From assembly GCF_900187375.1 (NCBI RefSeq), contig NZ_FYEW01000002.1, forward strand, positions 62,001-126,000: a DNA stretch of 64,000 nucleotides, written 5' to 3'. Shown here piece after piece: positions 1-64,000 of the stretch. The notes beneath the pieces were generated by a model. The model did not search any database. It had not been told where the DNA came from and was given only the letters and a program-made list of their open reading frames with translations. This DNA comes from Hymenobacter gelipurpurascens (GTDB lineage Bacteria; Bacteroidota; Bacteroidia; Cytophagales; Hymenobacteraceae). The translations under genes were made by a program, and so were the position numbers. Numbering within the stretch: position 1 is the stretch's first letter; the number at the start of each line of letters is the position of its first letter.

Positions 1-1
1 G

Positions 2-244
2 CGTGCCAAAGCCTACAACCAGCACTTGCACCCTATCATGGAAGAACGCCTGACCCTGATGCAACAAGGCCTGGTGCTGCGCCAGACAATGCTCCATAAC
101 TTTAAATATCGGTTCGATAATCAGCTCATCATGATGGACCGCGACATGAACCAAGCTGATTTTGAGGCCACCGACATCGGCAATGAGCTGCGCGGAAAGC
201 CCCGGCAGCGCGCTCCTATTCAGGGGCGCCTCTCCGACCTCTAG
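2..244 (+). CDS. C-terminal fragment of an unidentified protein (cut by window edge)
   Basis: The frame is open from the first bases of the window to a TAG at 242-244, so the visible 80 residues are the end of a gene that starts outside. The piece is hydrophilic and rich in Met, Gln, Arg and Asp, with no membrane segment or signal peptide. I do not recognise a family. The ending QRAPIQGRLSDL looks like a flexible tail. The stop codon lies within a TAGGCCAC copy of the window-wide short repeat. The next gene starts 118 bases downstream on the same strand. Confidence 0.6.
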   Translation, partial: RAKAYNQHLHPIMEERLTLMQQGLVLRQTMLHNFKYRFDNQLIMMDRDMNQADFEATDIGNELRGKPRQRAPIQGRLSDL

Positions 245-362
245 GCCACCTCATCAGCAATCCTGTCAGGTGCTAGGCCACTGGCAGGATTTATGACGCC
301 ACCCGCGGGGCCGGCAGTGCAGTTTTCAGCAACCCTGGAAGCGCGCCGCCGGCCCTTCGTTT

Positions 363-1202
363 ATGGCTGCACCTGACCCCATTGGCCTATTTGCGCAGAA
401 AACCGATGCCGAGCTGCTCTACCTGGCGCAGCACGGGCAGCGCTACCCGGCTGCCGTGGTACAGGGCGCGGTGCAGGAACTGCAACGGCGCGGCCTCATT
501 CCGGAGGAGCTACCCGAACCAGCAGCTAGGCCAGTAGCTGCGCCGCCTGCTGCTCCAGAACCCACAGGCTGGGCGCTGTTGCGCGAAATCAGCCGGGGAG
601 TTTTCTGGCCTCGGCCCGGCTACTTTATCACGCCTATCCTGCTATGGCTGAATTTACTGGCCTACGCCCTGCTTGGCATGACGGGCTCTGATGTGGTGGC
701 GCCCAAGGCCGCCGACCTATTGCGCTGGGGAGCAAACTTCTCGCCCCTGACTTTGCACGGTGAGCCGTGGCGGTTGGTCACGAGCTGCTTCCTGCACGGC
801 GGGCCGGCCCATTTGCTCCTGAACATGTCGTCGTTAGTGTTTCTGGGGCTGATGACGGAGGGCCTGACGGGCCGCTGGCGGTTGCTGCTGGTGTATCTGC
901 TGAGCGGAGTGGGCGGCAGCCTGCTCAGCTTGTGGTGGCATACGCAGGGCGTGCTTTCGGTGGGCGCTTCGGGTGCGGTTTTCGGGCTCTATGGGCTACT
1001 GCTGGCCACGTTGGCGCTGCACCCCACCTCCTTCGACCGCTCGGCTCGTCGCACGGTGCTGCTCTTCATCTTTTACCTGATGGCCAGCAGTCTGGCCGGT
1101 GGCCTGGAGACCCACGCTACGGATAATGCCGCCCATGTTGGGGGGTTACTTTCTGGTTTGGTGCTAGGGAGTTTGTGGCCGCGTCGGGCGCATCAGGCTT
1201 AA
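363..1202 (+). CDS. Rhomboid family intramembrane serine protease
   Basis: Predicted polytopic membrane protease of 279 residues that would cut transmembrane substrates within the lipid bilayer. The N-terminal 85 residues look cytosolic: a short helical region, then a Pro/Ala-rich linker. Six or so hydrophobic segments follow. The first loop has the rhomboid signature HGGPAHLLLN. The catalytic serine sits in GASGAVFG (Ser203) and the partner histidine in NAAHVGG (His258), so the Ser-His dyad is complete. Length and motif order fit the family well. Substrate is unknown; the neighbours do not indicate a pathway. Confidence 0.9.
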   Translation: MAAPDPIGLFAQKTDAELLYLAQHGQRYPAAVVQGAVQELQRRGLIPEELPEPAARPVAAPPAAPEPTGWALLREISRGVFWPRPGYFITPILLWLNLLAYALLGMTGSDVVAPKAADLLRWGANFSPLTLHGEPWRLVTSCFLHGGPAHLLLNMSSLVFLGLMTEGLTGRWRLLLVYLLSGVGGSLLSLWWHTQGVLSVGASGAVFGLYGLLLATLALHPTSFDRSARRTVLLFIFYLMASSLAGGLETHATDNAAHVGGLLSGLVLGSLWPRRAHQA

Positions 1203-1342
1203 CGCACACTAAGCCTTTTTGCATCCTACAGGTTTATTTCTATATTCGTCAACACTATATTATTATCTGACAGATACTTACAGTCGGTTGTCACTGACCG
1301 TATAAGTAACTGCCTTGTTCCGTCCCTTACCTCAAGCTCGTT

Positions 1343-2305
1343 ATGAAACAACTGTTACATAGAATAGCCACGGCCGTGGCTGCCGTGCTTTTTGCTGGCT
1401 CCGCCCTTGCCCAAACGCCCGCCGCCGTACCGAATGGCACCTTCGAAACATGGGCAACCCGAAGCGGCTCCGAGGCACCTCAAGGGTGGATCAGGACCGA
1501 CGAAATCCTGCTGTTTTCGCCCTTGGCACCCCTGGCCCCACTCCTGGTCCCGACAGGAACTACTACTAAAGCTACCGTTGCGCACGGGGGTAGCTTTGCG
1601 GCACAAATTCAGAATGTGACCAAAACTACACCGCTGGGCAGTGGCGTGCTGCCCGGGGTGTTGTTGCTGGGCCCCCGCGTGAACCCCAATGGCAACGGCA
1701 ATATAGGCGGCGGTGTGCCCTATACCAGTCGGCCTACGCGCCTGCAGTTCTGGTATAAGCTCACCGGCGACAATGCGCTAAAAGACTCTGCGGCGGTAGC
1801 GGTTGGGCTGCTCAAAACCCAAGGCGGCTCCACCGACATTGTGGCCTTCGATGCCGTGTTGCTGACTCCGGCTCCCAACTATACCCTGCTGGATATCCCG
1901 CTGACCTACATCAAAAGCTTTGCTCCCGATACGCTGGAAATGTTCTTTACCTCTGGTCTTGCGGAAACCATTACGGCTGGTACCACGCTCACGGTTGATG
2001 ACGTTGTGCTGGTAGGCACCGTAACGGCTACCCGCAACCCGGCCACCGAGGCCGCCCTCCAAATTTACCCCAACCCCAGCACCACCGGCGAGTTCTCCCT
2101 GGCCTCTCTCGGCAGCCCAGCCCTTTCCACCGCTCCGTACACCGTAGCCGATGTTACGGGCCGCATCGTTGTTCGCCAGGCCGCCGCAGCCGCCAGCGAA
2201 GCCCGCGGCCGCCTCGTAAACCTCCGCGGGCAGCGGGCAGGCGTGTACCTGCTACAGCTTCATACGCCCGAAGGTCCCCTAACCCGTAAGCTCGTAATTG
2301 AGTAG
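1343..2305 (+). CDS. Secreted protein with type IX secretion (T9SS type A) sorting domain
   Basis: 320 residues. An N-terminal signal peptide runs to about residue 23 (cleavage after SALA). A beta-rich central region starts with NGTFETW and resembles the jelly-roll module found in PCMD/choice-of-anchor proteins; this assignment is tentative. The last 80 residues form a typical Por secretion tail: IYPNPS, then VTGRIV, then an ending of the G-VYLLQL...KLVIE type. Such proteins cross the inner membrane by Sec and the outer membrane by T9SS, and end up on the surface or in the medium. A strong terminator hairpin follows at 2327. The stop codon is inside a TAGGCCAC repeat copy. Confidence 0.85.
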   Translation: MKQLLHRIATAVAAVLFAGSALAQTPAAVPNGTFETWATRSGSEAPQGWIRTDEILLFSPLAPLAPLLVPTGTTTKATVAHGGSFAAQIQNVTKTTPLGSGVLPGVLLLGPRVNPNGNGNIGGGVPYTSRPTRLQFWYKLTGDNALKDSAAVAVGLLKTQGGSTDIVAFDAVLLTPAPNYTLLDIPLTYIKSFAPDTLEMFFTSGLAETITAGTTLTVDDVVLVGTVTATRNPATEAALQIYPNPSTTGEFSLASLGSPALSTAPYTVADVTGRIVVRQAAAAASEARGRLVNLRGQRAGVYLLQLHTPEGPLTRKLVIE

Positions 2306-2326
2306 GCCACGCTGGCCCACGAGTAG

Positions 2327-2365
2327 AAGTCCGGCCGCTGCCTTGCGTAGTGGCCGGACTTTTTT
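2327..2365 (+). terminator. Rho-independent terminator after the T9SS protein
   Basis: A 10-bp perfect stem (AAGTCCGGCC pairing with GGCCGGACTT) is followed by a run of T. It lies 22 bases after the stop of the T9SS gene and reads in its direction. Confidence 0.85.
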
Positions 2366-2517
2366 ACACATTTGGCAATCGAAAAGCCAGCTTTCGGGGT
2401 TATAGAGCCAGAAGAGCCTGCCAGGCATACCGCTTTGCCGACAGAATGCAATGAGATCCTGGCGGCGGCCCTATTTACCACTCCTAGGCCTATCTGGTAG
2501 TTAATCATCTGACTTTC

Positions 2518-9090: not shown

Positions 9091-9135
9091 TGGCCTAGGC
9101 CAGTAAGGAACGGCAGGCCCATTACCCCTAAAAAA

Positions 9136-28037: not shown

Positions 28038-28754
28038 ATGCTGTTTGCCGCTGATATTACCCCCTTCGATTGGAACCGCATCTTGTTTTCGGATGATGCG
28101 CCCCCGCTGTTTCTGCTGGAAGTAGCCTTGCGCTGCGTGGCCACCTACCTGCTCATGCTGGGAGCCTTGCGCGTAACGGGCCGGCGCGGGGTGCGGCAGC
28201 TCTCTATTTTCGAGCTGAGTATTATCCTGGGCCTCGGCTCCGCGGCCGGCGACGCCATGCTCTACCACGATACGCCCCTACTTTACGCGGCCGTGGTCTT
28301 CGCCGTCGTGACGGCGCTTTACCTGCTCTTCAACTGGCTCACCGAAAAATTTCCGGGCTTCAGTGACTGGCTCGAAGGCAAGCCCGTGCTGCTGGTGGCA
28401 GATGGCCAGATTCAGCTCAAGAATTTCCGTAGCCAGAATCTCACCCAAAAAGAGCTGTTCGGCGAGCTGCGTCAGCTGCAGGTAGAGCACCTGGGCCAGG
28501 TGCGCCGGGCCTATATTGAGGCCACCGGCAACATGAGTATCTACTTTTTTGAGGAACAGGAGCCCGTACGGCCGGGCCTGCCCATCTGGCCCGAGCGGGT
28601 GGCCGAAACCCATCGCCGCGCAGAAGAAGCGGGCCGCCATGCGTGCGCCTGCTGCGGCCATGTGCAGGAATTACCACGAGGCGGCACAGCCAAGTGCCCC
28701 GTATGCCAAGAAGAGGAATGGGTGCCCGCCTGTGAGGCCAAACGAGTGGCCTAG
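28038..28754 (+). CDS. DUF421 (YetF-like) membrane protein with C-terminal zinc-ribbon-like tail
   Basis: 238 residues. Three hydrophobic segments in the first 100 residues, with the DUF421 signature RQLSIFELSIILGLGSAAGD, then a cytosolic domain with GKPVLLVADGQIQLKNFRSQ and LTQKELFGELRQ. Related YetF proteins are of unknown role. Unusually, the last 40 residues add a cysteine cluster (HACACCGHVQELP, then AKCPVCQEEEW) that could hold zinc. The stop lies in TAGGCCAC. Only 13 bases separate it from the convergent serine hydrolase. Confidence 0.82.
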   Translation: MLFAADITPFDWNRILFSDDAPPLFLLEVALRCVATYLLMLGALRVTGRRGVRQLSIFELSIILGLGSAAGDAMLYHDTPLLYAAVVFAVVTALYLLFNWLTEKFPGFSDWLEGKPVLLVADGQIQLKNFRSQNLTQKELFGELRQLQVEHLGQVRRAYIEATGNMSIYFFEEQEPVRPGLPIWPERVAETHRRAEEAGRHACACCGHVQELPRGGTAKCPVCQEEEWVPACEAKRVA

Positions 28755-28767
28755 GCCACTTAGTAGG

Positions 28768-36381: not shown

Positions 36382-37824
36382 ATGTCTATTACCAACGAAC
36401 TACTCAATACCGTACTGCGGCAGGCGGGCCGGGAGGTTTCGCGCAAGGAATTCCTGACGCTGGCCGGCCGAGGCCTGGCCGTGGGCGTAGCCACCAGCAC
36501 GCTGGCCAGTTGCCAGACCGATAGTGGGCCTACCACCGCGGCCACGGCTCCTACTCCTACCACCGGCACCCCCGCCTCCCAAGTAACATCCGCCACTATG
36601 TACACTAGCCCCGACGGACAGAAAATACCTTCCTCCGAAGCCGTATCGCCCCCCGCCAAAGTACCCACTGACCTCAACAAGCCCATTGAACTGGAAGAGT
36701 GGAAGTCCGACGTTGACCCTCAGTCGCCGCCCACTCCTACGCCCCTGCCGCCCGACAAGCGCGTGGGCTACGCCTTGGTAGGCCTAGGCCACCTGACGTT
36801 GGAAGAATTACTGCCGGCTTTTGGCCAAAGCAAAAAGTCGAAGCCGGTGGCGCTGGTCAGTGGCTCGCCGGAGAAACTCAAGAAGGTGGCGCAGCAGTAC
36901 GGCATCAAGCCCGAAAGCTGCTACAGCTACGAAAACTACGACCAGCTCAAGGACAACCCGGAGGTGCAGGTGATTTACATTGTGCTGCCCAACTCCATGC
37001 ACGCCGAGTACACCATCCGGGGCGCGCAGGCGGGCAAACACATTCTCTGTGAGAAGCCCATGGCTAACTCCGCCGCCGAGTGCGAAGCCATGATTGCGGC
37101 CTGTAAAAAAGCGGGCAAAAAGCTCATGGTGGCCTACCGCATCCAATACGAGCCCTACAACCGCGAAGTCCGCCAGATGATCCGCGACAACAAATTCGGC
37201 AAGACGAAATACATCCAGGCGCAGAATAGCCAAAGCTCGGCCAACCCCGACCACTGGCGTCATAAGAAGGCCCTGGCCGGCGGCGGCGCCCTCCCCGATA
37301 TTGGGTTGTATTGCCTGAATACGGCCCGTTTCCTGCTGGGCACCGAGCCAACGGAAGTATCGGCGTATATGCACAGCACGCCCGGCAATCCGCTGTTCAA
37401 GGAGGTAGAGGAAATGATGTCGTGGCAGATGCGCTTTCCCGATGGAATCGTGGTCGATAACATCACGCACTACAACACCCACGACTCGCGCTTTTACCGC
37501 GTGAACTCGGAGCGCGGCTGGATTCACCTCAACAATGCCTACGCCTACAAAGGTCAGGCGCTGCAAACTTCCCACGCCGAAGGCCCGGCCAAACTGGAGA
37601 ATCACATCACGCTGGGCGCCAAAAACCAGTTTGCCACCGAAATGGACCACTTCTCGGAATGCGTACTGGAAGACAAGGCGCCGCACACGCCCGGCGAAGA
37701 AGGCCTTCAGGACCAGCGCATTATGGAAGCCATCTACCAATCGGCCCGCGAAGGCCGCCCCGTGAAGCTACCTGCCGTAAAAGGCACCGACGTATTCCGC
37801 GGCCCCGAGCCCAAACAGGCCTAG
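36382..37824 (+). CDS. Gfo/Idh/MocA family oxidoreductase with export signal
   Basis: 480 residues. The N terminus reads SRKEFLTLAGRGLAVGVATS then LASC, like a Tat-type motif (RK instead of RR) followed by a lipobox, so the enzyme may be exported and lipid-anchored. After a Thr/Pro-rich linker the Rossmann domain has VGYALVGLGHLTLEELLPAF and the conserved HILCEKPMANSAAECEAM. The C-terminal substrate domain has GGGALPDIGLYCLN. NAD(P)-dependent oxidation or epimerisation of a sugar or its derivative is expected; glucose-fructose oxidoreductase is the nearest type. Divergent from dacB. Confidence 0.88.
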   Translation: MSITNELLNTVLRQAGREVSRKEFLTLAGRGLAVGVATSTLASCQTDSGPTTAATAPTPTTGTPASQVTSATMYTSPDGQKIPSSEAVSPPAKVPTDLNKPIELEEWKSDVDPQSPPTPTPLPPDKRVGYALVGLGHLTLEELLPAFGQSKKSKPVALVSGSPEKLKKVAQQYGIKPESCYSYENYDQLKDNPEVQVIYIVLPNSMHAEYTIRGAQAGKHILCEKPMANSAAECEAMIAACKKAGKKLMVAYRIQYEPYNREVRQMIRDNKFGKTKYIQAQNSQSSANPDHWRHKKALAGGGALPDIGLYCLNTARFLLGTEPTEVSAYMHSTPGNPLFKEVEEMMSWQMRFPDGIVVDNITHYNTHDSRFYRVNSERGWIHLNNAYAYKGQALQTSHAEGPAKLENHITLGAKNQFATEMDHFSECVLEDKAPHTPGEEGLQDQRIMEAIYQSAREGRPVKLPAVKGTDVFRGPEPKQA

Positions 37825-39314: not shown

Positions 39315-41045
<1,731 letters not shown>

Positions 41046-41075: not shown

Positions 41076-41173
41076 AACGTCATGCTGAGCGGAGTCGAAG
41101 CATCTCTACCTCTGGCTAACCAACTGGCCTAGAGAAGCGGTAGAGATGCTTCGACTCCGCTCAGCATGACGTT
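41076..41173. repeat. Palindromic repeat element (CATGCTGAG family) with TGGCCTAG loop
   Basis: Arms of about 35 bases, nearly perfect: AACGTCATGCTGAGCGGAGT at the left and its complement ending AGCATGACGTT. Loop CCAACTGGCCTAGAGAAGC. Lies 30 bases after pyrG. Confidence 0.9.
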
Positions 41174-41711: not shown

Positions 41712-43607
41712 ATGGACAGAAATTCAGCAATCGGCCTGTTTTTGATTTCGGCCTTGCTCATCATCTACCTCTACGTTGTGCCCCGGCCCAAGCCAGGCGA
41801 GGAGACGAAAAAGCCCACGACCACCACAGCCGCCGCTCAAACCGCTGCCACGGCACCCGTTGCCGCCGCCCCGCTAGATTCTGCAGCTGCCGCCCGCACG
41901 TTGGGCGCTTTCGGCGCGGCTGGCGTAGGCTCGGCCCAAACCACGGAGCTGAAAAACGACAATATCACCATCACCTTCTCCTCGAAAGGCGGCCGCGTGG
42001 AGGCTGTTCGGCTGAACCAGTACAAGACTTTCTTCGGCAAGCCCCTGGATTTGCTGGACGCCCAGAGTGCCCAGATCGATACGCGCTTCCGCACCACGGA
42101 TGGCCGCCAGGTAAAGCTCTCCGATCTTTACTTCCGGTCTGAGCCCCAGGGCAACAACGCCGTGCGCTTTGTGGCAGATGTAGCCGGTGGCCAGATTGAG
42201 CAGGTCTATACACTGCCTGCCAACAGCTTCGAGCTTAGCTACAACCTGCGCTTCAACAATCTGGCTAGCGTAGTAACGCAGGAGCCGCTCACGTTCACCT
42301 TCGTCGACCATGTACGGCAGACGGAGCAGGACATGAAGCAGAACCGCAACCACACCACCATCAACCGCTACCTCGTTTCCGGCGACCATACGGCTCTGGC
42401 CGAGGCATCGGAGAAGCCTGAGGAAATCAAAGTAACCGAGCCGCTGAAGTGGGTAGCGCACAAGCACGACTTCTTCGTGGCTGGCATCGTGGCCGATAAC
42501 CAGTTCCAGTCGGGCCAGCTTGATGCTACGGTAAACCTGGAGGACTCCACATTCATCAAAACCCTAAGCAGCACGCTGACCATTCCGGCCGCCGATGTGC
42601 AGCAGGGCAAAGCAAACTTCCGCTTCTACTTCGGCCCCAACTCCTTCAACACGTTGAAGGAAGTAACACCCGGCTTCGACCGCAACGTGTACCTAGGCTG
42701 GGGTATTTTCCGCTGGGTAAACCAGTTTGTGGTGCTGCCCGTGTTCCATGTGCTAGAGAAATTCATCAGCTCCTACGGTATCATCATCGCCCTGCTGGTA
42801 GTCCTGATCAAGCTCGTGACCTGGCCCCTGACCTACAAATCGTATGAGTCGCAGGCCAAAATGAAGGTCCTGAAGCCGGAGATTGATGCCATCAAGGAGA
42901 AGTTTCCGGAGGATCAGATGAAGCAGCAGCAGGAAACCATGAAGCTCTACAACATCATGGGCGTCTCGCCGATGGGTGGCTGTATTCCGCAGCTGCTGAC
43001 CATACCGATTCTGTTCGCGATGTTCCAGTTCTTCCCCAACGCCATTGAGCTGCGTCAGCAGCCATTCCTGTGGGCCCACGACCTGAGCACCTACGACGAC
43101 CTGATTAAGCTGCCCTTCGCGCTGCCGTTCCTGGGTAGCCATATCAGCCTCTTTACGCTGCTGATGACGCTCTCGACGCTGGCCATGACCTACCAGAGCA
43201 ACCAGAACAACCCAGCTGCCATGCAGGGTCCGATGAAGTTCTACAGCTACCTGATGCCGCTGGTATTCTTCTTCGTGCTAAACAGCTTCTCATCTGGCCT
43301 GACCTGGTATTACCTGATTTCCAACTTGGTAACCCTGGCCCAGCAGGCCATTACGCGCCGCTTCGTGGATGACACGAAAGTGCGCGCCAAGCTGGAAGCT
43401 AACAAGGTGAAGAACAAGGACAAGAAGCCCGGTGGCTTCTCGGCCCGCCTCCAGGATGCCATGAAGGCCGCTCAGGAAAAGGAAACCCAAACCCGCAAAG
43501 GCGGCCGCCCCGCCCTCGATGCGGATACTGACGGCTCGGATGCGGATTCTGACACGGGCGCTTCGGATGTATCGCCGAAGAAACCGCGCAAGACCCGCCG
43601 TTCGTAA
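41712..43607 (+). CDS. yidC: Membrane protein insertase YidC
   Basis: Inserts and folds inner-membrane proteins, alone or with SecYEG. 631 residues. TM1 (AIGLFLISALLIIYLYVVP) is followed by an Ala/Thr-rich linker and a large periplasmic beta-domain (to about residue 330). The conserved insertase core has VLIKLVTWPLTYKSYESQAK (the hydrophilic-groove Arg is replaced by Lys-rich context as in many homologues), MGVSPMGGCIPQLLTIPILF and LMPLVFFFVLNSFSSGLTWYY. The tail is basic (KKPRKTRRS), suitable for ribosome contact. Complete. Confidence 0.96.
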   Translation: MDRNSAIGLFLISALLIIYLYVVPRPKPGEETKKPTTTTAAAQTAATAPVAAAPLDSAAAARTLGAFGAAGVGSAQTTELKNDNITITFSSKGGRVEAVRLNQYKTFFGKPLDLLDAQSAQIDTRFRTTDGRQVKLSDLYFRSEPQGNNAVRFVADVAGGQIEQVYTLPANSFELSYNLRFNNLASVVTQEPLTFTFVDHVRQTEQDMKQNRNHTTINRYLVSGDHTALAEASEKPEEIKVTEPLKWVAHKHDFFVAGIVADNQFQSGQLDATVNLEDSTFIKTLSSTLTIPAADVQQGKANFRFYFGPNSFNTLKEVTPGFDRNVYLGWGIFRWVNQFVVLPVFHVLEKFISSYGIIIALLVVLIKLVTWPLTYKSYESQAKMKVLKPEIDAIKEKFPEDQMKQQQETMKLYNIMGVSPMGGCIPQLLTIPILFAMFQFFPNAIELRQQPFLWAHDLSTYDDLIKLPFALPFLGSHISLFTLLMTLSTLAMTYQSNQNNPAAMQGPMKFYSYLMPLVFFFVLNSFSSGLTWYYLISNLVTLAQQAITRRFVDDTKVRAKLEANKVKNKDKKPGGFSARLQDAMKAAQEKETQTRKGGRPALDADTDGSDADSDTGASDVSPKKPRKTRRS

Positions 43608-43660: not shown

Positions 43661-43871
43661 TGGTGGCCATTTTCCTGCCGCCTTTTGCTTAGCTGTATCC
43701 TAATGACGTGGCCAAGTAGTGGCCTAGAAGCTCACAGGAGTTCGTGATTCTTCTCTGCCTGCCACTGCTAGGCCACTCCGGCATGCGGTAGGCCACTTGG
43801 CTACTCAGCCAGATTGGTTTCCGGCGTGGTTTTTGGCTTTCTTGGCTTGCACTTCCATTCCCTCCTTTCCT

Positions 43872-44390
43872 ATGCGCCTGTTCTTTGCCCCTCTCCTGTT
43901 GGCCGTCTTGCTGAGTGCCTGCGCCGTGGAAGCCCAACAGCCTACCAAGTCACATGCAACCAAGCAAAAAGCAAAGCCGATGAAGCCGAAAACTGCTGCC
44001 AAAGCTTCCGTTGCTGCTGAGCCGGTTATCGTGTTTCGCCGGACGCCCTGCTACGGCACCTGCCCGCATTATGAGGCCACTATTTACCCTGATGGTCGCG
44101 TGCAATACGAAGGCCTGCAGTATGCCCCGGTAGAAGGCAAGCGGGAGTTCAAGCTCCCGATGGCGGTGGTAAACCAGATCAAGCAGGACGCGGATCAAAT
44201 CGGCTTTTTTCAGATGAAAGAGCACTACCCCACGCGGTTTACCGATATGCCTTCCACCTTCCTCACCATCCGGAGGACCGATGGCACAATGAAGCTAGTG
44301 CAGGCCGAGGACAGCATACCGCCGTCCTTACAAAAGCTCTTCGACTACATTCACGCAGAAGTAGTAAAAGGCCTAGGCGTAACTAAATAG
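43872..44390 (+). CDS. DUF6438-containing lipoprotein
   Basis: 172 residues with a lipoprotein signal (MRLFFAPLLLAVLLSACAV, Cys17). A Lys/Ala-rich linker leads to the DUF6438 core: FRRTPCYGTCPHYEATIYPD with its cysteine pair, then VQYEGL, FFQMKEHYPTRFTDMPSTFL. Function unknown; the two cysteines may be redox-active or pair with each other. The frame is open 25 codons upstream, but the lipobox fixes the start. Convergent with an ABC substrate-binding gene across a perfect palindrome. Confidence 0.82.
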   Translation: MRLFFAPLLLAVLLSACAVEAQQPTKSHATKQKAKPMKPKTAAKASVAAEPVIVFRRTPCYGTCPHYEATIYPDGRVQYEGLQYAPVEGKREFKLPMAVVNQIKQDADQIGFFQMKEHYPTRFTDMPSTFLTIRRTDGTMKLVQAEDSIPPSLQKLFDYIHAEVVKGLGVTK

Positions 44391-44414
44391 TGGCCTAGGA
44401 GTTGATAAAAACAG

Positions 44415-44452
44415 AAAAGGGTGGCCTAGACTGCAGTCTAGGCCACCCTTTT
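44415..44452. terminator. 38-bp perfect palindrome containing two TGGCCTAG words
   Basis: AAAAGGGTGGCCTAGACTGC at the left pairs perfectly with its complement at the right, so the whole 38 bases are self-complementary with TGGCCTAG / CTAGGCCA as the inner stem. Flanking A- and T-runs make it a two-way terminator between convergent genes. Confidence 0.85.
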
Positions 44453-44471: not shown

Positions 44472-46145
44472 CTAGTTCTTGCGCACCCGCTCCAGCACCA
44501 GTTGGTTCATAGGATTAGGCGTGAGGCCCTGCACGTTGTTCTGGGTCAGGCGCACTACTTCGTCATAATACAGCGCAATGACGGGTGCTTCTTCTACAAT
44601 GATGCGGTCCATCTGGCGGTAGAGATCGTAGCGCTTTTCGGTGTTCTGCTCCAGCTTGGCCTGCTCGTAGAGGCGGTCGTAGGCCAGGTTCTTGAAGTGG
44701 GTTTTGTTGGGGCCGGCCGGCGAGAAGTTCTTGCTATAGAACAGAGCCAGATAGTTTTCGGCATCGGGGTAGTCGCCGAGCCAGCTTTTGGTGAAGAATG
44801 CACTACTGCCGTTATCCACCATTTCCTGGTGGGCGGCGGCCTGATTCACGTCGATATCCACCTGCACACCTACATCGGCCCAGTTTTTCTGCAGGTACTC
44901 GCACACCTCCTTACGTTCCGCTACCGTGGCTAGGCGCAGGTGCAGCGGGTGGCGTTGGTCATAGCCGGCCTGTTTCAGCAGTTGCCGCGCCTTGGCCGGC
45001 TGATACGTGTAGCCAGGCACCAGCTTCTGGCTATACGATGGCAGGGAAGCCGGCACAAAGCCTGAAAGGCCTGGCACGCCTACATTATTGAGGAAGTAGG
45101 CCAGTAACTCGGGCTTATTGAGGGCATAGTTCAGCGCCTGGCGCACGCGCTTATCCTGGAGGGCTTTGCCGGCCTCGGCGTTGTCGCCGCGCAGGCGGGC
45201 GGGGTCCTGCTGCAGGCCTAAGTACTCCGTGTTGAGGTAGGGCACTTTCTGCAGTCGGAACTTGCCCAGGAAGTCTTCGCGCACGGTACCATCGGGGTAC
45301 ATAATCAGGTCGCGCGAGCCGGCCCGAATGCCACTGAGGAAATCCAGCTTGCCTTGCATGAAAGTCAGGAACTCCGTTTTGCGGTCCTGAATGAAGCTGA
45401 TCTGTACAGCATCGAGGTAAGGTAAAGGCTTGCCTTGCGCATCCTTACGCCAGTAGTTGGGGTTGCGGTGGTAGATGATGGCGTTGCCTTCATCCCACTC
45501 CTTGAAGATAAAAGGCCCCGTACCCACCGGATGCTCCCGGAAATCTTTCCCGTATTTCTGCACTGCCTCGCGCGGCACCACATACGCATACGGCATCGTC
45601 AGGATACCCAAAAACGGAATAAACGGCTCCTTCAGATACACCCGCAGTGTGCTGTCGTTGACGGCCACAAAGCACGTATCGGCCGGCTCCCCTTTGGCGT
45701 CTTCCAGCACCTTGCCCCGGAAGATCCAGCCGCCAGGGCTCGCCGTAGGCCCATCCAGCAGGCGCTTGAAACTATACACGAAGTCCTGCGCTACTACTGC
45801 CCGGCCTTTGCCGCCCGGAAACACCTCAGCATCATGAAAATGCACCCTCGGGCGCAGCGTGAAGGTGTAGGTTTTGCCGTCGGGCGAGATGCTGTACCGC
45901 CGCGCAATGGCGGGGCCGGGCTTCAGGCTGTCGTCCAGCTCTACCAGCCCATTGTAGAGCTGCGTGGCGGCCCAGATATTGGCCTGCTTGTTCGTGAAGG
46001 CAGGATCCAGGGAAGTAAGCGCCTCAGGCTGATTGTAGCGGAACACACGCCGGGCATCGGTGGCCGGGCCGGTATCGGAGCAGGCTGTGAGCAGCGGCAA
46101 CAGAGCAAAAGCAGAACCAACAGCGCGGCGCGAAAACGGAAACAT
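44472..46145 (-). CDS. ABC transporter substrate-binding lipoprotein (peptide-binding, OppA/DppA type)
   Basis: 557 residues with a lipoprotein signal (FALLPLLTACSD, Cys near residue 22). SBP_bac_5 pattern: RYNQPEALTSLDPAFTNKQA, YSISPDGKTYTFTLRPRVHF, HPVGTGPFIFKEWDEG and QALNYALNKPELLAYFL. Binds oligopeptides or similar ligands in the periplasm and feeds an ABC permease. No permease or ATPase gene lies next to it, so it is a stand-alone binding protein here. Its promoter abuts that of the divergent gene. Confidence 0.88.
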   Translation of the reverse strand: MFPFSRRAVGSAFALLPLLTACSDTGPATDARRVFRYNQPEALTSLDPAFTNKQANIWAATQLYNGLVELDDSLKPGPAIARRYSISPDGKTYTFTLRPRVHFHDAEVFPGGKGRAVVAQDFVYSFKRLLDGPTASPGGWIFRGKVLEDAKGEPADTCFVAVNDSTLRVYLKEPFIPFLGILTMPYAYVVPREAVQKYGKDFREHPVGTGPFIFKEWDEGNAIIYHRNPNYWRKDAQGKPLPYLDAVQISFIQDRKTEFLTFMQGKLDFLSGIRAGSRDLIMYPDGTVREDFLGKFRLQKVPYLNTEYLGLQQDPARLRGDNAEAGKALQDKRVRQALNYALNKPELLAYFLNNVGVPGLSGFVPASLPSYSQKLVPGYTYQPAKARQLLKQAGYDQRHPLHLRLATVAERKEVCEYLQKNWADVGVQVDIDVNQAAAHQEMVDNGSSAFFTKSWLGDYPDAENYLALFYSKNFSPAGPNKTHFKNLAYDRLYEQAKLEQNTEKRYDLYRQMDRIIVEEAPVIALYYDEVVRLTQNNVQGLTPNPMNQLVLERVRKN

Positions 46146-46231: not shown

Positions 46232-46912
46232 ATGCACCTGACCTACTACGGCCATTCCTGCTTTCTTCTTGAAGCTGATGGCAGCAAAGTCCTTTTTGAT
46301 CCGTTCATTCGTCCGAACCCCTTGGCTAAAGACGTAGATTTGGATAAAATTGAGGCCGATTACATTCTGCTCAGCCACGGCCACGGCGACCATGTGGCCG
46401 ACGTAGCAGAAATTGGCCAGCGTACCGGTGCCGAGCTGGTAGGCATGGTAGAAACGGTGGGTTGGTTTGGTGCTAAAGGCCTCAAAGCCAACTACGGCAT
46501 GAACCTGGGCGGTACCCTTACGCTGCCCTTCGGGAAAGTGAAGATGGTGGCCGCCGCGCACTCCAGCTCCATGCCCGATGGCTCCTATGGTGGCCTAGCG
46601 GCCGGTTTTGTGGTAGAAACGGAAGGTAAAACCTTCTACTTCGCCGGCGACACCGCCCTGACCTACGACATGAAGCTGATTGGTGAGCGGTATAAGCTGG
46701 ATTTCGCCATTCTGCCCATCGGCGACCATTACACCATGGGCATTGATGATGCGCTGGTAGCCGCCGACTGGACGGGTGCCACCAAAGTCATCGGCATGCA
46801 CTTCGATACCTTCCCGCCCCTCGTCATCAACCACGAAGAGGCAAAAGCCAAAGCCACGCATGCCGGTAAAGAGCTGGTTCTGCTCAGCATCGGCGAAACG
46901 ATTACATTTTAA
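46232..46912 (+). CDS. UPF0173-type metal-dependent hydrolase (metallo-beta-lactamase fold)
   Basis: 226 residues from MHLTYYGHSCFLLEADG. The metal site is LLSHGHGDHVADV (HxHxDH), with further ligands in VAAAHSSSM, YFAGDTALT and IGMHFDTFP. Family members are cytosolic hydrolases of uncertain substrate; RNase or lactonase activity has been proposed for relatives. The frame is open 21 codons further upstream but across both promoters, so the chosen ATG is preferred. Followed by parA. Confidence 0.92.
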   Translation: MHLTYYGHSCFLLEADGSKVLFDPFIRPNPLAKDVDLDKIEADYILLSHGHGDHVADVAEIGQRTGAELVGMVETVGWFGAKGLKANYGMNLGGTLTLPFGKVKMVAAAHSSSMPDGSYGGLAAGFVVETEGKTFYFAGDTALTYDMKLIGERYKLDFAILPIGDHYTMGIDDALVAADWTGATKVIGMHFDTFPPLVINHEEAKAKATHAGKELVLLSIGETITF

Positions 46913-48012: not shown

Positions 48013-48969
48013 ATGTCAGAGAAGAACGAAGAGAAATCTACGCCGGCAACGGCATCCGTAGCGGCGAAGCGCAAAATAGGTGGCCTAGGCCGGGGCCTCA
48101 ACGCCTTGATTGAAGGCAGCTACGAGAAAAAAGGCGAGCGGCTAGGCCTGGTGCCTCACCCCGTCAACTCGGTTGGGCTGATTGCAGTGGGCCAGATTGA
48201 GGCTAACCCCTACCAGCCCCGTACTCACTTCGACCAGCAGGCCCTCCAGGACTTGGCGGAAAGCATCAAGGTGCAGGGCATTATTCAGCCCGTGACGGTG
48301 CGCCAGATGGGCACCAACGTGTACCAGCTGATTTCCGGTGAACGGCGTCTACAGGCCTCCAAACTGGCCGGCCTGGAAGCCATTCCGGCCTACATCCGCA
48401 AGGCCGATGACCAGCAGATGCTGGAAATGGCCCTGATTGAAAACATCCAGCGCGAAAATCTCAACGCCATTGAAATAGCCCTGAGCTACCAGCGTCTCGT
48501 GAGCGAGTGCAACCTGAAGCAGGAAGAGCTCGGCGACCGGGTGGGCAAGAACCGCTCGACCGTTACGAACTACCTGCGCCTACTCAAGCTCCCGCCCGAT
48601 ATCCAAATAGGCCTACGCGACAGCGTGATCAGCATGGGTCATGCCCGCGCCCTCATCAACATTGAGGATATGGAGCAGCAGCTAGGCCTTTTCCGCCGCA
48701 TTGTGGACGAGGATTTATCAGTGCGCCGCGTAGAGCAGCTGGTACGCAACGGCGGCTCTACGCCGGCGGAAGGCCAGAAGAAAACCTCGCATCCCACTGA
48801 GCCGGTGGTACCGCCCGCGGAGCTACGCCGCACCGAGCGCCATCTGACGGAGCGCTTTGGCAGCCGTGTGATGGTGAAGCCAGGGCCCCAGGGCCGTGGT
48901 GAAATCAAGATTGCCTTTGACTCGGTGGAAGATATGCAGCGGATTCTGCACATTCTGCAACCTGCTTAA
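48013..48969 (+). CDS. parB: Chromosome-partitioning protein ParB
   Basis: 318 residues. After a charged N terminus with GGLGRGLNALI it has the CTPase/ParB box: GQIEANPYQPRTHFDQQALQ and LISGERRLQASKLAG. The GERR motif is complete. The helix-turn-helix for parS follows (QEELGDRVGKNRSTVTNYLR, then SMGHARALI), and the C-terminal dimer domain ends IKIAFDSVEDMQRILHIL. Works with ParA on origin segregation. A TAGGCC word falls in GGLGRG. The next gene begins 11 bases later. Confidence 0.96.
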   Translation: MSEKNEEKSTPATASVAAKRKIGGLGRGLNALIEGSYEKKGERLGLVPHPVNSVGLIAVGQIEANPYQPRTHFDQQALQDLAESIKVQGIIQPVTVRQMGTNVYQLISGERRLQASKLAGLEAIPAYIRKADDQQMLEMALIENIQRENLNAIEIALSYQRLVSECNLKQEELGDRVGKNRSTVTNYLRLLKLPPDIQIGLRDSVISMGHARALINIEDMEQQLGLFRRIVDEDLSVRRVEQLVRNGGSTPAEGQKKTSHPTEPVVPPAELRRTERHLTERFGSRVMVKPGPQGRGEIKIAFDSVEDMQRILHILQPA

Positions 48970-48980: not shown

Positions 48981-49586
48981 ATGCATGGGCTTCCAAATGC
49001 AGTAGCTTCTTTTCTGCTGTTAGCGGCACTGCTGCTAGCTCAAATGGCCCACGCTCAAACGCCTTCTGCGTCAACTGAGAAACTAGCTTGGTGGCCCGTC
49101 ACTCGCCCGCAGAAGGCAGGCATACTTTCGGCTATACTGCCGGGTGCTGGCCAAGTATACAATGCGCAAGAGTGGAAACTACCTCTCGTATATGGAGCCT
49201 TGGCGGGCTCTGCCTACGCAGAAGTCCATTTTTGGCAGCTCTACCAAGAATATAAAAAGGGCTATGAAGCTAGACAACAGTTTGCACTTGGCAATTCAAC
49301 GGCAATAGATAGAGGGCCTCGTTCGGGTAAAGAGCCGAGCGATGTAGCCCAGCTGTATCGTTTTAAATCTTACCGCACTTCCCGGGATTTGTGGCTAGGG
49401 CTTAATGCCGTGATATATGGGCTTCAGATCCTGGATGCTGTCACGATTGCGCACCTTCATGATTTTGACATTAGCGAGAATTTGTCATTTCAATGGCAAC
49501 CAACTGCGCTGCCAATAGCCTCTTCCGGTTGGGCACCTGGCCTACGAATAGCACTAACTGTTCGCTCTTCTAAGCGCTCATTTTAA
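48981..49586 (+). CDS. DUF5683 domain membrane protein, first copy
   Basis: 201 residues with a signal-like N terminus (residues 8-25, ending MAHAQ). The DUF5683 core is present: VTRPQKAGILSAILPGAGQVY, WKLPLVYGALAGSAYAEV and LWLGLNAVIYGLQILDAVTI, ending with DFDISENLSFQW. Usually one copy lies between parB and dapB in this phylum; here there are two. This one has AT-richer codon use than the second and carries a less regular N-terminal domain. Probable inner-membrane or periplasmic protein, no known activity. Confidence 0.85.
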   Translation: MHGLPNAVASFLLLAALLLAQMAHAQTPSASTEKLAWWPVTRPQKAGILSAILPGAGQVYNAQEWKLPLVYGALAGSAYAEVHFWQLYQEYKKGYEARQQFALGNSTAIDRGPRSGKEPSDVAQLYRFKSYRTSRDLWLGLNAVIYGLQILDAVTIAHLHDFDISENLSFQWQPTALPIASSGWAPGLRIALTVRSSKRSF

Positions 49587-49598: not shown

Positions 49599-50261
49599 AT
49601 GCACCTCAAAGCTAAGTCCCCAGTGCTGCTCGTTTGGCTGGTTACATTCATGCTGATTCTTAACAGCCTGACGGCCCACGCCCAAACCGTAACTGCTGGC
49701 CCCGACTCGGCGCGGGTAGCTACCAAAACCGCCGCCGTCAACGACTCGCTGCGTCGTACTGAAAAGCTGCTGGGCTGGCGCGTAACACGCCCCCAGAAAG
49801 CTGCGTTGCTAGCGCTGGTATTGCCGGGCTCAGGCCAGATCTACAACCATCAGTATTGGAAGCTGCCGCTAGTATATGGTGGCCTAGGAGGTGTTGGCTA
49901 CGGGCTGTTCTTTTACCAGTCGCGCTACAAAGAGTATGTAAAAGGCAAGAACGATTTTGTGGATGCTCAGAATGCTGGCTCTCCCATCACTGTTGATCAG
50001 CTCTCCGGGTCTGAGGTCAAGAAGGAGCGCTCTATCGCGAATGTGCAGCGGGGCATCATTTTTTATCGACGAAACCGCGATACATTCATTGCTTACACAG
50101 CACTGGTATATGGCGTCACGATTCTGGATGCGTTGGTCGCGGCTCACCTGCGCGACTTCGATATCAGCGAAGACCTGAGCATGCGCATGGATCCGGTGCT
50201 GCTACCTTCTTCCCTGCGGCAGCCTGCTACTGGCCTAGCCGTCACTTTCACTTTGAAATAA
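49599..50261 (+). CDS. DUF5683 domain membrane protein, second copy
   Basis: 220 residues from MHLKAKSPVLLVWLVTFMLI, a clear signal peptide or anchor. Core VTRPQKAALLALVLPGSGQI, WKLPLVYGGLGGVGYGLFFY and YTALVYGVTILDALVAAHLR, then DFDISEDLSMR as in the first copy. It starts 13 bases after the first copy and ends 18 bases before dapB, so the genes form one operon. A TTG three codons upstream (49590) is the only other start. It is probably the original family member, judging by codon use like its neighbours. Confidence 0.87.
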   Translation: MHLKAKSPVLLVWLVTFMLILNSLTAHAQTVTAGPDSARVATKTAAVNDSLRRTEKLLGWRVTRPQKAALLALVLPGSGQIYNHQYWKLPLVYGGLGGVGYGLFFYQSRYKEYVKGKNDFVDAQNAGSPITVDQLSGSEVKKERSIANVQRGIIFYRRNRDTFIAYTALVYGVTILDALVAAHLRDFDISEDLSMRMDPVLLPSSLRQPATGLAVTFTLK

Positions 50262-50998: not shown

Positions 50999-51117
50999 GT
51001 GAAGTGGTGAGTTGGTGAAATAGGGAGTTTGCTGTTATAGTGGCCTAGATCGCGCTACTTGCGCAATGCGTGCCACCAAAACAGCAAACTCCCTATTTCA
51101 CCAGCTCACCACTTCAC
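50999..51117. repeat. Long inverted repeat between dapB and lepB
   Basis: Arms of about 38 bases: left GTGAAGTGGTGAGTTGGTGA... and right ending ...CAGCTCACCACTTCAC. The centre has AGTGGCCTAGATCGCGC. It begins right at the dapB stop codon. The outer GTGAAGTGGTGAG sequence resembles the elements at 11401 and 18329. Confidence 0.85.
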
Positions 51118-53311: not shown

Positions 53312-53698
53312 ATGAATACGACCACAACACAGGGTGTCACCGTCAGCGTAACCACCAACTACCTGCCCGACTATTCGAGCCCAGGTCAGGAACATTACGT
53401 CTTTGCCTATAAAATTGATATCCGCAACGACAGCGAGTTTACCGTGAAACTGCTGCGCCGCCACTGGTACATCTACGACGCCAACGGCGTGGTGCGTGAG
53501 GTGGAGGGCGAAGGCGTGGTAGGCCAGCAACCCGTGCTGGAGCCCGGCGAGTCGCATCAGTATGTATCCGGCTGCAACCTGAAGTCGGGTTTGGGCAAGA
53601 TGCGCGGCTCGTATCAGATGGAGCGCCTCATGGATGGCCATGAGTTTGCCGTTGATATTCCGGAGTTTACCCTCGTGGTGCCTTACCGCCTGAACTAG
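53312..53698 (+). CDS. apaG: ApaG domain protein
   Basis: 128 residues, one immunoglobulin-like beta-sandwich. Typical DUF525/ApaG motifs: GQEHYVFAYKIDIRNDSEFT, LLRRHWYIYDANG, VEGEGVVGQQPVLEPGESHQ, and GKMRGSYQM near the end. Named for a link with cobalt/magnesium homeostasis, but the function is not settled. Complete length. The following hairpin terminates it. Confidence 0.94.
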   Translation: MNTTTTQGVTVSVTTNYLPDYSSPGQEHYVFAYKIDIRNDSEFTVKLLRRHWYIYDANGVVREVEGEGVVGQQPVLEPGESHQYVSGCNLKSGLGKMRGSYQMERLMDGHEFAVDIPEFTLVVPYRLN

Positions 53699-55634: not shown

Positions 55635-55723
55635 GAAAGTCAGGGGTTGAGATGAAGCCGTTGCTCCACAGAATACGGAGAGTGTAGTAGCGAAGTGGCC
55701 TAGGCCACTCTTGCCGCTGGGGC

Positions 55724-60136: not shown

Positions 60137-60408
60137 GGATGGTCAGGGAGAAAGAAGTAGTTGCGTGCGCGGTCTTACGCAAAAATGAAATGTAGGGATA
60201 ATACGGCAAGAAAGCCTTTTTCTGTTCTAGGCAAACTCAACCGTGTAGTAGTATCATTCTCAGCCAGAAGGCTTCTCAGAAAATCTTACTCCGCCCGAAA
60301 TCTACCAGGGTTATTCAGCACTACGTGACCCTTCGCGCTGCGCACTAAGTACTTTGGCTTACGGTGGCCTAGCAACTGAGTTCGGACAGGGCTAGGCCAC
60401 TAAAACGC
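60137..60408. other. Gene-free region between cphA and the tRNA-Cys terminator
   Basis: About 270 bases without a plausible gene on either strand. It should contain the cphA promoter. Two TGGCCTAG/CTAGGCCA words lie at 60364-60398. Nothing else stands out. Confidence 0.5.
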
Positions 60409-60475: not shown

Positions 60476-60546
60476 AGGTGACGAGCGGATTCGAACCGCT
60501 GTAGGAGGTTTTGCAGACCTCTACCTAGCCACTCGGTCACGTCACC
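60476..60546 (-). tRNA. tRNA-Cys (anticodon GCA)
   Basis: 71 bases on the minus strand. Acceptor stem GGTGACG with CGTCACC; discriminator U, as expected for cysteine. The anticodon arm is GAGGT-CTGCAAA-ACCTC, giving GCA. The T arm has GGTTCGAATCC. The 3' CCA is not encoded. It has its own promoter (60563-60594) and terminator (60409), so it is a single-gene unit. Confidence 0.96.
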
Positions 60547-60793: not shown

Positions 60794-60827
60794 AAAAAAA
60801 GGCCCCGGATTTCTCCGGGGCCTTTCT
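60794..60827 (-). terminator. Terminator after rpsA
   Basis: On the minus strand GGCCCCGGA pairs with TCCGGGGCC around a short loop and is followed by TTTTTTT. The rest of 60595-60793 has no gene. Confidence 0.9.
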
Positions 60828-60847
60828 TACTAAAGAGCAAGGGAAGC

Positions 60848-62944: not shown

Positions 62945-63027
62945 TAGTTTGCGTATAGCCCTGCTGTACACGTCCGGCTCAGGGCCAACTCCGGAACGCG
63001 TTTTTACTTGATACACAGTGCCAAAGC

Positions 63028-63050
63028 ACCGGCCCGCCACCCTGGCGGGG
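63028..63050 (-). promoter_or_regulatory. Hairpin in the rpsA leader
   Basis: CCCGCCA and TGGCGGG enclose a 3-base loop just downstream of the predicted rpsA transcription start, giving a stable GC-rich stem at the very 5' end of a leader of about 105 bases. Confidence 0.45.
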
Positions 63051-63053
63051 GCG

Positions 63054-63061
63054 CAAAGATA
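63054..63061 (-). promoter_or_regulatory. -7 promoter element for rpsA
   Basis: TATCTTTG on the minus strand, full TAnnTTTG match, 110 bases before the rpsA start codon. The -33 side shows no clear TTG. Confidence 0.5.
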
Positions 63062-63117
63062 CGGAAGTTAGAGGAGAGTTAGAAATCCTCTATACTACAT
63101 GATAGACCTAGCTTCAA

Positions 63118-63471
63118 TCAGTCTGAAATCAGAACAACATCCTTGAAATACAATTCGATGTATTTCAGCTTACAACTATCTCCTGCAACCAGATTTGACC
63201 CATTATTTGGTACAGTTACCGAAAACCGTTTCCCATGAATAGTATATAACAAGTGAATATTCCGGCTATTTGAACCAGTCACATACCCTGTGACTTCATG
63301 CCCATTCTCCTTTATGTAGTTGCGCCATTTGTGGCGACCAACTTCTAGGCCAGTAAAGAATAGCAACATACTGCATAGTGTGAGAATGTGTTTCTTATTG
63401 CTTCTTAGATTCACTAACCACCTATTTCGATTAGAGCCTGATATTCTTGGTCTTTTATTCATTCGCAACAC
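63118..63471 (-). CDS. Orphan protein with one membrane segment
   Basis: 117 residues. Basic N terminus (MLRMNKRPRISGSNRNRW), one hydrophobic segment (HILTLCSMLLFFTGLEV), then a beta-rich C-terminal part (HEVTGYVTGSNSRNIHLLYT, KRFSVTVPNNGSNLVAGDSC). The second half resembles DUF3592-type sequences in pattern (a Tyr-containing strand, a turn, then a DSCKLKY strand), but I cannot assign it. Codon use is AT-rich compared with the rest of the window. An ATG three codons later (63462) is also possible. Confidence 0.55.
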   Translation of the reverse strand: MLRMNKRPRISGSNRNRWLVNLRSNKKHILTLCSMLLFFTGLEVGRHKWRNYIKENGHEVTGYVTGSNSRNIHLLYTIHGKRFSVTVPNNGSNLVAGDSCKLKYIELYFKDVVLISD

Positions 63472-63590
63472 TATAATTATTTACAGTAAGGAAGAGCAGT
63501 TGATATTTCATGAGTAGCCTTTAATCCATATCTCTTATTATTCGTACTGCCCATTACCCCTACCTTAACCATTGCCAAAACAGCCAGTTC

Positions 63591-64000
63591 ATGACCCGAT
63601 TAGAGATTATCAGAAAGACCAGTGTCGCGTACCAGGAAATCCTGCACAAGATTGAAACAAGGAGAAATACCTGGAAAAACGACACCCGCAACCTGATTCT
63701 GGAGCAGCTAAACGAGGTGCAGCGCGAAGTAACCCTGAACTGGTACGTTGATACCGATAACTATCTGGAGAATCGGGAGGTGATATTCCTTTCCTTTAAC
63801 TCCTCCCCTAGCGGTATAAAGACAGTACTGCACGAAGAGGCTGAACAGGAAACCGACTTCCGACACTATGTTAAGAAGGGGGGTGCGCTACTCTATTCCC
63901 AGCTTTCTGACTCTAGAGTGTATGTGAGCATTCAATACCCTGAGATTGTAGAACTCAAGGATTGCGGCGAACCAAAACACCTGGATAGCTTCGAGCCCGA
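63591..64000 (+). CDS. Unidentified protein, 3' end outside the window
   Basis: The frame opens at ATG 63591 (MTRLEIIRKTSVAYQEILHK) and stays open for 136 codons to the window edge. The visible part is soluble, highly charged and mixed alpha/beta: a helical start followed by NWYVDTDNYLENREVIFLSF and GGALLYSQLSDSRVYVSIQY. No family recognised. AT-richer than most of the window, like its neighbour at 63118. Long open frame and regular codon pattern support a real gene. Confidence 0.55.
   Translation, partial: MTRLEIIRKTSVAYQEILHKIETRRNTWKNDTRNLILEQLNEVQREVTLNWYVDTDNYLENREVIFLSFNSSPSGIKTVLHEEAEQETDFRHYVKKGGALLYSQLSDSRVYVSIQYPEIVELKDCGEPKHLDSFEP

Follow-up and report, generated by a model that had tools for sequence, protein, structure and literature searches.

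The 64,000-nucleotide stretch of Hymenobacter gelipurpurascens DNA analysed here (contig NZ_FYEW01000002.1, positions 62,001 to 126,000; hereafter the window) carries numerous copies of the heptamer TGGCCTA and its reverse complement TAGGCCA. This heptamer turned out to be the core of a longer word, RSWGGCCTAS, which is a real, DNA-level, clade-specific word and represents one dialect among several within the Hymenobacteraceae. Our preferred, albeit tentative, reading is that RSWGGCCTAS is a self-DNA word with dialects, similar to a DNA uptake sequence (DUS), and that Bacteroidota may recognise it by means of a system for DNA uptake or recombination that does not depend on pili.

In the window, we counted 64 copies of TGGCCTA and 51 copies of TAGGCCA, i.e. 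115 copies or 1.8 per kb, compared to 8.4 copies predicted for 64 kb from base composition. A preliminary description of the window had reported a recurrence of about two per kilobase on both strands and about 20 copies in the first 9.3 kb, where a chance expectation of one or two was given; these figures were reproduced, with 21 copies found in that segment and 1.2 predicted from base composition. The density is not quite as level up to the end of the window as had been assumed, with 45, 39 and 27 copies in the first three 20-kb blocks. Among all 7-mers of the window, the word ranks first both by count and by z-score in a Markov model of maximal order (order 5; expected 68.3, z 5.7). For a larger sample, the window was combined with 13 stretches of the same genome (G000) to 324 kb, leaving aside two stretches of low density (L010 and L017) and the small contigs L018-L022, of which L022 consists of N only. 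This sample contained 541 copies, compared to 343 expected from the order-5 and 81 from the order-3 model, and the Markov-corrected count thus stays above expectation, whereas a count close to it would have spoken against the word.

The sequence context of the copies in the 324-kb sample extends the word to A/G, C/G, T/A, GGCCTA and C/G, i.e. RSWGGCCTAS. The two forms AGTGGCCTAG and ACTGGCCTAG were found 89 and 93 times, respectively, with 0.8 and 0.9 copies expected from the order-3 model, which corresponds to an enrichment of about 100-fold. The specificity is sharp: AGGCCTA was the only clearly enriched one of the 21 single-base neighbours (119 versus 27.6 expected, with C/G flanks), and the remaining 20 ranged from 0.28 to 2.4 of expectation. 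In the whole genome (5.06 Mb), ASTGGCCTAS occurs 2012 times in forward and 2016 times in reverse orientation, 4028 times altogether, as opposed to 23 times for a reversed-pattern control. The word thereby shares a feature of uptake words, namely that it is short, present about once per kilobase on both strands and far more frequent than by chance. Outside positions -3 to +10, the information content of the logo is at background; since there is almost no conservation beyond about 10 bases, the word is not part of a longer repeat. A dispersed element of the repetitive extragenic palindrome or miniature inverted-repeat type was rejected on the same grounds, as the logo revealed no longer unit and most alignable sites showed substitutions, and a few showed indels, instead of an insertion footprint.

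The coding context of the word was assessed on 267 open reading frames (ORFs; 282 kb), again without L010, L017 and L018-L022, which were defined by a longest-ORF rule and not by curated genes, using 100 shuffles of synonymous codons within each gene. The ORFs contained 362 copies, compared to 71.0 (standard deviation 7.5) after shuffling; codon usage, which had been considered as a possible source of the enrichment, is therefore not the explanation. Both orientations showed the excess, as did all frames in which the word is possible. In the three sense frames, TGGCCTA was observed 14, 89 and 136 times versus 4.4, 37.7 and 11.2 times after shuffling (observed/expected ratios, O/E, of 3.2, 2.4 and 12.1), and TAGGCCA reached O/E values of 5.5 and 36.6, the latter resting on 0.7 expected copies. 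As noticed before, copies lie both inside and between genes, and those in coding sequence are mostly read as GL, AY or LG. Noncoding DNA contained 149 copies compared to 20.2 expected (order 3) and, with 3.58 copies per kb, is more densely covered than coding DNA with 1.28 per kb; the word is thus densest where coding constraint is weakest. Among the TAG stop codons of the sampled ORFs, 20 of 60 are read as part of TAGGCC, as opposed to 0 of 97 in G114, a Hymenobacter genome with another word. Taken together, these counts refute the view that codon usage, base composition or a longer dispersed repeat gave rise to the word as a by-product, a view to which we assign next to no probability. In its favour, the reading as GL, AY and LG means that a frame bias exists, and a word-poor control from Pontibacter (see below) still shows an O/E of 2.3; neither accounts for the excess after shuffling, overall and by frame, for the noncoding copies, for a logo that is nearly empty outside the word or for the substitutions, not insertions, at most alignable sites.

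The spacing of the copies is close to random (coefficient of variation of the gaps 1.03), save for 22 overlapping inverted pairs of the form TGGCCTAGGCCA. A regular spacing was suggested by the 13 additional stretches of the genome, which looked strikingly even (dispersion 0.09, lower-tail p = 2.5e-5). This was rejected: after inclusion of the first three 20-kb blocks of the window the dispersion was 0.49 (p = 0.054), and it was 0.79 (p = 0.25) in G190, another word-rich genome, for which reason we treat the spacing as random. Using the sign of the GC skew of each stretch as proxy for the direction of replication, we found the copies to be distributed over the G-rich and the other strand without preference, both in the 13 stretches of G000 (203 versus 223 copies, p = 0.36) and in 24 stretches of G190 (197 versus 234, p = 0.083), so that the strand bias relative to replication for which a test had been proposed was not seen with this proxy. 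The two low-density stretches mentioned above (L010, G000:C1:1400001-1420000, and L017, G000:C4:1-20000) contain 0.35 and 0.45 copies per kb, respectively. They carry genes for a plasmid Rep3-type initiator and glycosyltransferases and thus look acquired. The low density in these two single stretches would be in line with the scarcity of DUS in acquired DNA.

The word is confined to a single small clade. Across 120 Hymenobacter genomes, ASTGGCCTAS was counted 4028 times in G000, 3506 times in G130, 3339 times in G196 and 2302 times in G190, and between 17 and 119 times in the other 116 genomes. In a draw of 120 genomes at the level of the family, counts were low in all genomes except G000. Orthologous loci of 15.5-22 kb, the best of which are nearly all from Hymenobacter, were fetched and genomes were placed by means of the yidC gene of the window (41712..43607, + strand). 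We take G196 to be H. wooponensis and G130 to be H. fodinae, as their matches coincide with those of the genomes of loci L050 and L051. In a quick YidC tree, from which L104 (long branch) and seven of 30 further loci (one fragment and six presumed duplicates of named loci) were dropped, the four word-rich genomes form one clade (Shimodaira-Hasegawa-like approximate likelihood ratio test 98) with H. mucosus as sister. H. mucosus (G144, with the same YidC) contains 111 copies of ASTGGCCTAS, which is near the top of the 116 low genomes.

Relatives carry other words instead. Based on orthologous loci and extra stretches, we found ACCTAGGT in H. cavernae, H. crusticola and G184, CCCTAGGG in H. polaris, CCCTAGG[GT] in H. 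setariae, ACCTAGGGC in Solirubrum, CCCTAGC in BT559a and CA2-7, and CCCTACCC(C) in H. citatus, H. profundi, H. ginkgonis, UV11 and G167. At the genome level, CCTAGG was counted 5585-8806 times in six of the 120 genomes, 1209-2331 times in the focal clade and no more than 888 times in the other 110, and CCTACCC was counted 2284-6650 times in 14 of the 120 (cut-off 2000; next genome 1660). Altogether, 24 of the 120 Hymenobacter genomes lie above the cut-offs for one of the three words, and in the rest we found other words or, in many cases, none; species that are neighbours on the tree often have a common word. In Pontibacter, AAGTATAA or a close form was the top word with a z-score of at least 8 in 15 of 21 loci, including two with AGGTATAG. 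Eighteen order-3 simulations of six Pontibacter loci did not exceed a z-score of 6.1; this null is too lenient, as a real locus without strong word (L105) reaches 8.4. Synonymous-codon shuffling gave O/E values of 6.7 for AAGTATA (seven loci), 9.6 for AGGTATA, 19.0 for ACCTAGG (H. cavernae), 19.7 for CCCTAGG (H. polaris), 5.9 and 7.3 for CCTACCC (G114 and UV11, respectively), 7.9 for CCCTAGC and 3.9 for TGGCCTA in G190. Since AAGTATA in six word-poor Pontibacter loci still gave 2.3, small excesses mean little. Most of the words have a TA centre with variable arms, as in AAG-TA-TAA, AGG-TA-TAG, GGG-TA-GGG, ACC-TA-GGT, CCC-TA-GGG and GGCC-TA-S. The preliminary description, which had been made from the window, thus correctly recognised a real genome-wide repeat at the DNA level and the appropriate classes for comparison (HIP1, uptake words and Chi); the longer form of the word, its restriction to one small clade and the different words of the relatives were not visible to it. 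In the literature, covered partially and at the level of titles and beginnings of abstracts, we found no such words described for Hymenobacter or Pontibacter.

Two over-represented strings may be something different from the TA-centred words and are not relied on here. H. nivis and H. coccineus (L101, L090) show an over-representation of GGGGCCCC, and the excess of GGGCCCC may be partly compositional, as its O/E after codon shuffling (3.4) is near the control value of 2.3. GCCCCCCA, with an O/E of 3.2, is preceded by an A/T-rich run in both H. roseosalivarius (AAAAAGCCCCCCAG) and BT188 (L087, L098), and GCCCCCC in these genomes may be terminator-like, given the flanking A-run, and not a scattered word. 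In H. mucosus and YC55 (L052, L072), no strong word was found; an apparent excess of CTAG was rejected as a word, as it reflects only the absence of CTAG avoidance (O/E 0.71 and 0.85 versus 0.32 in nine pooled wordless loci). Other strings were noticed in passing. TCGCGCA/TGCGCGA is a milder recurrent top word (z 6-15) in many Hymenobacter loci (such as L062, L065 and L071) as well as in G114 and G190, including species without a strong word. G114 (L172-L191) contains about 40 copies in 400 kb of AAGGACCTT and CAGGATGACA, which probably belong to a longer dispersed element, and L060 contains strings of a similar kind. GGATCC, included genus-wide as a control column, was counted only 0-10 times in many Hymenobacter genomes (such as G112, G178, G072 and G059) and 100-325 times in others. 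Avoidance of this site is patchy within the genus and resembles a restriction fingerprint.

The evolution of individual sites was followed in the segment 31.3-53.7 kb of the window, which contains 29 sites, 17-18 of them alignable to each of the sister species. Compared to relatives without the word, coding sites differ by scattered, often synonymous substitutions, and a few intergenic sites by indels. At nine sites that could be polarised, changes affected all seven positions and comprised 12 transitions and 5 transversions, and the encoded amino acids were unchanged in 30 of 39 comparisons of codon blocks. According to these alignments, the word arose mainly through point substitution. Within the clade, sites were retained at 13/15, 15/17, 24/45, 15/16, 19/21 and 19/23 in six comparisons, which are not independent and cover alignable sites only, whereas 7-mers matched for composition were retained at 29-40% (p between 0.0007 and 8e-7). 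In the focal clade, the word is thus conserved between relatives above other sequence, as is typical for uptake words. Retention in relatives without the focal word was 1/10, 1/14 and 2/13, and a control pair without word gave 2/4 versus 32%. The dialect of H. citatus and H. profundi was kept at 25 of 33 sites versus 42%, the sole significant comparison for another dialect within Hymenobacter. G190 has lost three shared words, with CTG in place of CTA among the changes; these cases are too few to interpret.

Several sites of the window illustrate these patterns. The word at 36785..36791 (- strand) is identical in H. wooponensis and H. fodinae, and six relatives without this word differ from it at one or two core bases. 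The coding copies at 37130..37136 (+; read as VAY) and 40901..40907 (+) are the same in both sister species and, in addition, in HSC-4F20 (L055) and H. glacieicola (L053), respectively. Retention in both sister species was also observed for a copy between ORFs at 41125..41131 (+), despite differing flanks, for the copy at 44391..44397 (+) immediately 3' of the stop codon of ORF 43797-44390, for a coding copy at 44680..44686 (-; read as LAY) and for the copies at 49538..49544, 49880..49886 and 50231..50237 (all +). The same applies to 53520..53526 (-), which is present in H. mucosus and H. sediminis too. Another copy between ORFs at 51041..51047 (+) is kept in H. wooponensis and broken by an indel in H. 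fodinae. At the coding copies 46591..46597 (+) and 48081..48087 (+), relatives without the word differ by two to four bases; at the former, L052 and L055 show three synonymous changes (GGC GGT CTG versus GGT GGC CTA), and at the latter the differences are mostly synonymous. Overlapping inverted pairs TGGCCTAGGCCA are located at 9091..9102, 28747..28758 (with AG/CT flanks) and 55696..55707. A further inverted pair forms the 24-base palindrome TGGCCTAGACTGCAGTCTAGGCCA at 44422..44445, where both sister species have an indel-bearing sequence instead, and another one, with 14 bases per arm region and 21 bases between, lies at 60365..60399. A tRNA gene (60476-60546, - strand) was the sole Rfam match above gathering score in the window.

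A cognate orphan methyltransferase, which had been proposed as a target for a search, was not found among the families covered. We searched PF00145 in 38 genomes and PF01555, PF02086 and PF02384 in all 120 genomes of the genus, where absence means for some genomes that they are not among the matching genomes listed. G190, which consists of one contig, is rated 100% complete and contains 2302 copies of the word, has no match with E <= 0.001 to any of the four families. PF00145 gave no match in G000 either, and PF01555 none in G130 and G196. None of the four families is thus present in all four genomes of the clade, the search being limited to these main families and not including rarer ones (Eco57I, PglX and others). 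An orphan methyltransferase from these families was therefore rejected as the cause, and methylation is unlikely to be the basis of the word.

Given the DUS-like pattern, the transformation of Riemerella and the near-universal presence of ComEC, which was detected in 119 of the 120 Hymenobacter genomes (the exception, G187, is rated 82% complete), we favour a self-DNA word that would be read by a pilus-independent machine, with a chromosome-binding protein as the main rival. The bimodal distribution of the word in the genus (four versus 116 of 120 genomes) was counted in favour of self-recognition. A pilus-based DUS machine was rejected, as no PilB/PilT/GspE-type ATPase (PF00437) was above cut-off among the 14 candidates scored in each word-bearing genome. 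More generally, it is conceivable, and we propose with caution, that Hymenobacteraceae, at least Hymenobacter, Solirubrum and Pontibacter, use TA-centred words that switch dialect between species for self-DNA recognition via such a machine, and that the words act as genetic isolation barriers. In the proposed mechanism, a DNA-processing machine that reads the word would give word-bearing DNA an advantage. The most likely route would be natural transformation as in Riemerella, another genus of Bacteroidota, involving surface or outer-membrane proteins followed by ComEC, DprA and RecA. Riemerella anatipestifer transforms with ComEC, DprA, ComF and RecA plus four proteins that do not resemble known machinery (PMC8459023). 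For R. columbina, a preference for own DNA has been described (PMC7965970). Neisseria and Haemophilus, two genera with self-recognition words, take up DNA through type IV pili (PMC7965970). If word-bearing DNA were taken up or recombined more often, copies arising by chance could spread and be kept by molecular drive and weak selection. An altered receptor would lead to new dialects, and loss of the receptor would let the word fade.

A number of observations weigh against this reading. No reader protein, receptor or cognate gene was found among the few families searched, which did not include the Riemerella-type families DUF5689, pfam13620 and DUF1343. PF00437, which covers the PilB/PilT-type ATPases that form part of the known uptake-word machines, was above cut-off in three of the 120 genomes. 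The 24 genomes with one of the three words were not among them, with scores obtained for 14 out of some 25-44 candidates in each genome; G114 has one match, below cut-off. ComEC is equally present in genomes without these words and hence does not explain the patchiness. There is no single core for all words, GGGGCCCC and GCCCCCCA lacking the TA, and the dialects follow the tree less cleanly than those of the DUS of Neisseriaceae: both CCTACCC and CCTAGG are found in more than one clade, and the word is not always the same in sister species. Four further comparisons of conservation for other dialects were non-significant, and a fifth, H. setariae versus H. polaris, gave 0/4. In Pontibacter, eight of 30 species pairs reached p < 0.05, the strongest being 20/35 and 37/41, both with p = 0.0003. 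Treangen et al. reportedly argued that many recent DUS arise by recombination, as opposed to the gains by point change seen here. Finally, a chromosome-binding protein under weak selection would lead one to expect a very similar pattern.

According to this main rival, a chromosome-organising or nucleoid protein specific to the lineage would bind to the word, with thousands of weakly selected sites and dialects that result from drift of its specificity. The random spacing, the absence of strand polarity in G000 and G190, the strong conservation of sites and the sharp specificity would all suit such a protein. We nevertheless consider it a somewhat unlikely explanation: no candidate protein was found, weak selection would be needed at thousands of single sites, and this reading explains neither the patchiness in the genus nor why separate clades have a word in common. 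An origin as in the highly iterated palindromes (HIP) of cyanobacteria, where a solitary methyltransferase together with biased mismatch repair would create and maintain the word, appears improbable. Methylation is the published model for HIP1 (PMC4390886). HIP1 and alternate HIPs also occur about once per kb, the alternate ones being GC-rich palindromes with a matching methyltransferase in some genomes (PMC4390886), several Hymenobacter dialects such as CCCTAGGG and ACCTAGGT are palindromic likewise, and some genomes are rich in HIP1 yet lack a CGATCG methyltransferase (PMC4390886). The focal word, in contrast, is non-palindromic, its gains are not confined to one mismatch type, and G190 has no match to the four main methyltransferase families searched.

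A function like that of Chi, i.e. a word that is read by an exonuclease of the RecBCD/AddAB type and promotes recombination, is similarly doubtful. Known Chi sites have a density and over-representation of the same order as the focal word, and the conservation at the DNA level would fit as well; the lack of preference for the G-rich strand in both G000 and G190, the palindromic sister dialects and the lack of such a word in most species of the genus argue against it. Guidance of FtsK, as by the FtsK-orienting polar sequences (KOPS), was largely refuted and has very little probability left. It had been suggested by the GGGTAGG dialect, which resembles the KOPS GGGNAGGG, and GGGTAGG was indeed more frequent on the G-rich than on the other strand in 20 stretches of G114 (314 versus 210, p = 6e-6). 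This bias is mild, at only 60:40, and the polarity of KOPS is strong, far above 60%; moreover, the focal word shows no polarity by the GC-skew proxy, and ACCTAGGT and CCCTAGGG are palindromic and cannot point.

Few bacterial groups are known to have self-recognition words. In Bacteroidota, clade-specific words that are conserved in their thousands, in genomes with no pilus-type ATPase above cut-off and, in one complete genome, no match to four main methyltransferase families, would bring to light either a word-reading uptake machine or a genome-wide DNA-binding system of a new type. Of the 120 Hymenobacter genomes, 24 exceed the cut-offs for one of three words, some have other words and in many none was found, which makes the genus a natural experiment in which to look for the reader and to examine whether such words spread by drive or by selection, a question still debated for both DUS (PMC2397512) and HIP1 (PMC4390886).

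Compared to known systems, the resemblance to KOPS is limited to the dialect GGGTAGGG, which fits the KOPS GGGNAGGG, its polarity being 60% in G114 as opposed to none in the focal word. Chi sites are likewise short over-represented words that act at the DNA level; the focal word differs in that it has no orientation bias and is not seen in most sister species, and some dialects are palindromic. Like HIP1 and the alternate HIPs, the word is highly iterated and GC-rich, with another word in some relatives (PMC4390886), but it is not palindromic and none of the four methyltransferase families is common to the four genomes. The similarities to the DUS of Neisseriaceae and the uptake signal sequences of Pasteurellaceae are more extensive: a word of about 10 bases present about once per kb, no general polarity, permissive places, conservation above background, inverted pairs, dialects and an apparent scarcity in acquired DNA. 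DUS are described as conserved above their flanks, as lying at permissive sites within the core genome but not in genes that were acquired recently, and as often arranged in inverted pairs (PMC2397512), as forming dialects around a fixed core (PMC3630211) and as having no general orientation bias (PMC2346458). Unlike these words, word-bearing Hymenobacter genomes have no PilB/PilT/GspE-type ATPase above cut-off, and the other dialects described here are mostly 7-9 bases long, several of them palindromic, mutually very different and recurring in separate clades. The word behaves like DUS or HIP, but as no pilus-type ATPase was above cut-off, the word is not a palindrome and no methyltransferase was found among the four families searched, it is assigned to neither class. 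The parallel that we propose is the transformation of Riemerella. It differs in that no specific word is established for it in the consulted parts of the two papers, the published k-mer table containing only A/T-rich strings (PMC7965970), and it combines ComEC, DprA, ComF and RecA with proteins that are not pilus-like and, in R. columbina, with a preference for own DNA (PMC8459023, PMC7965970).

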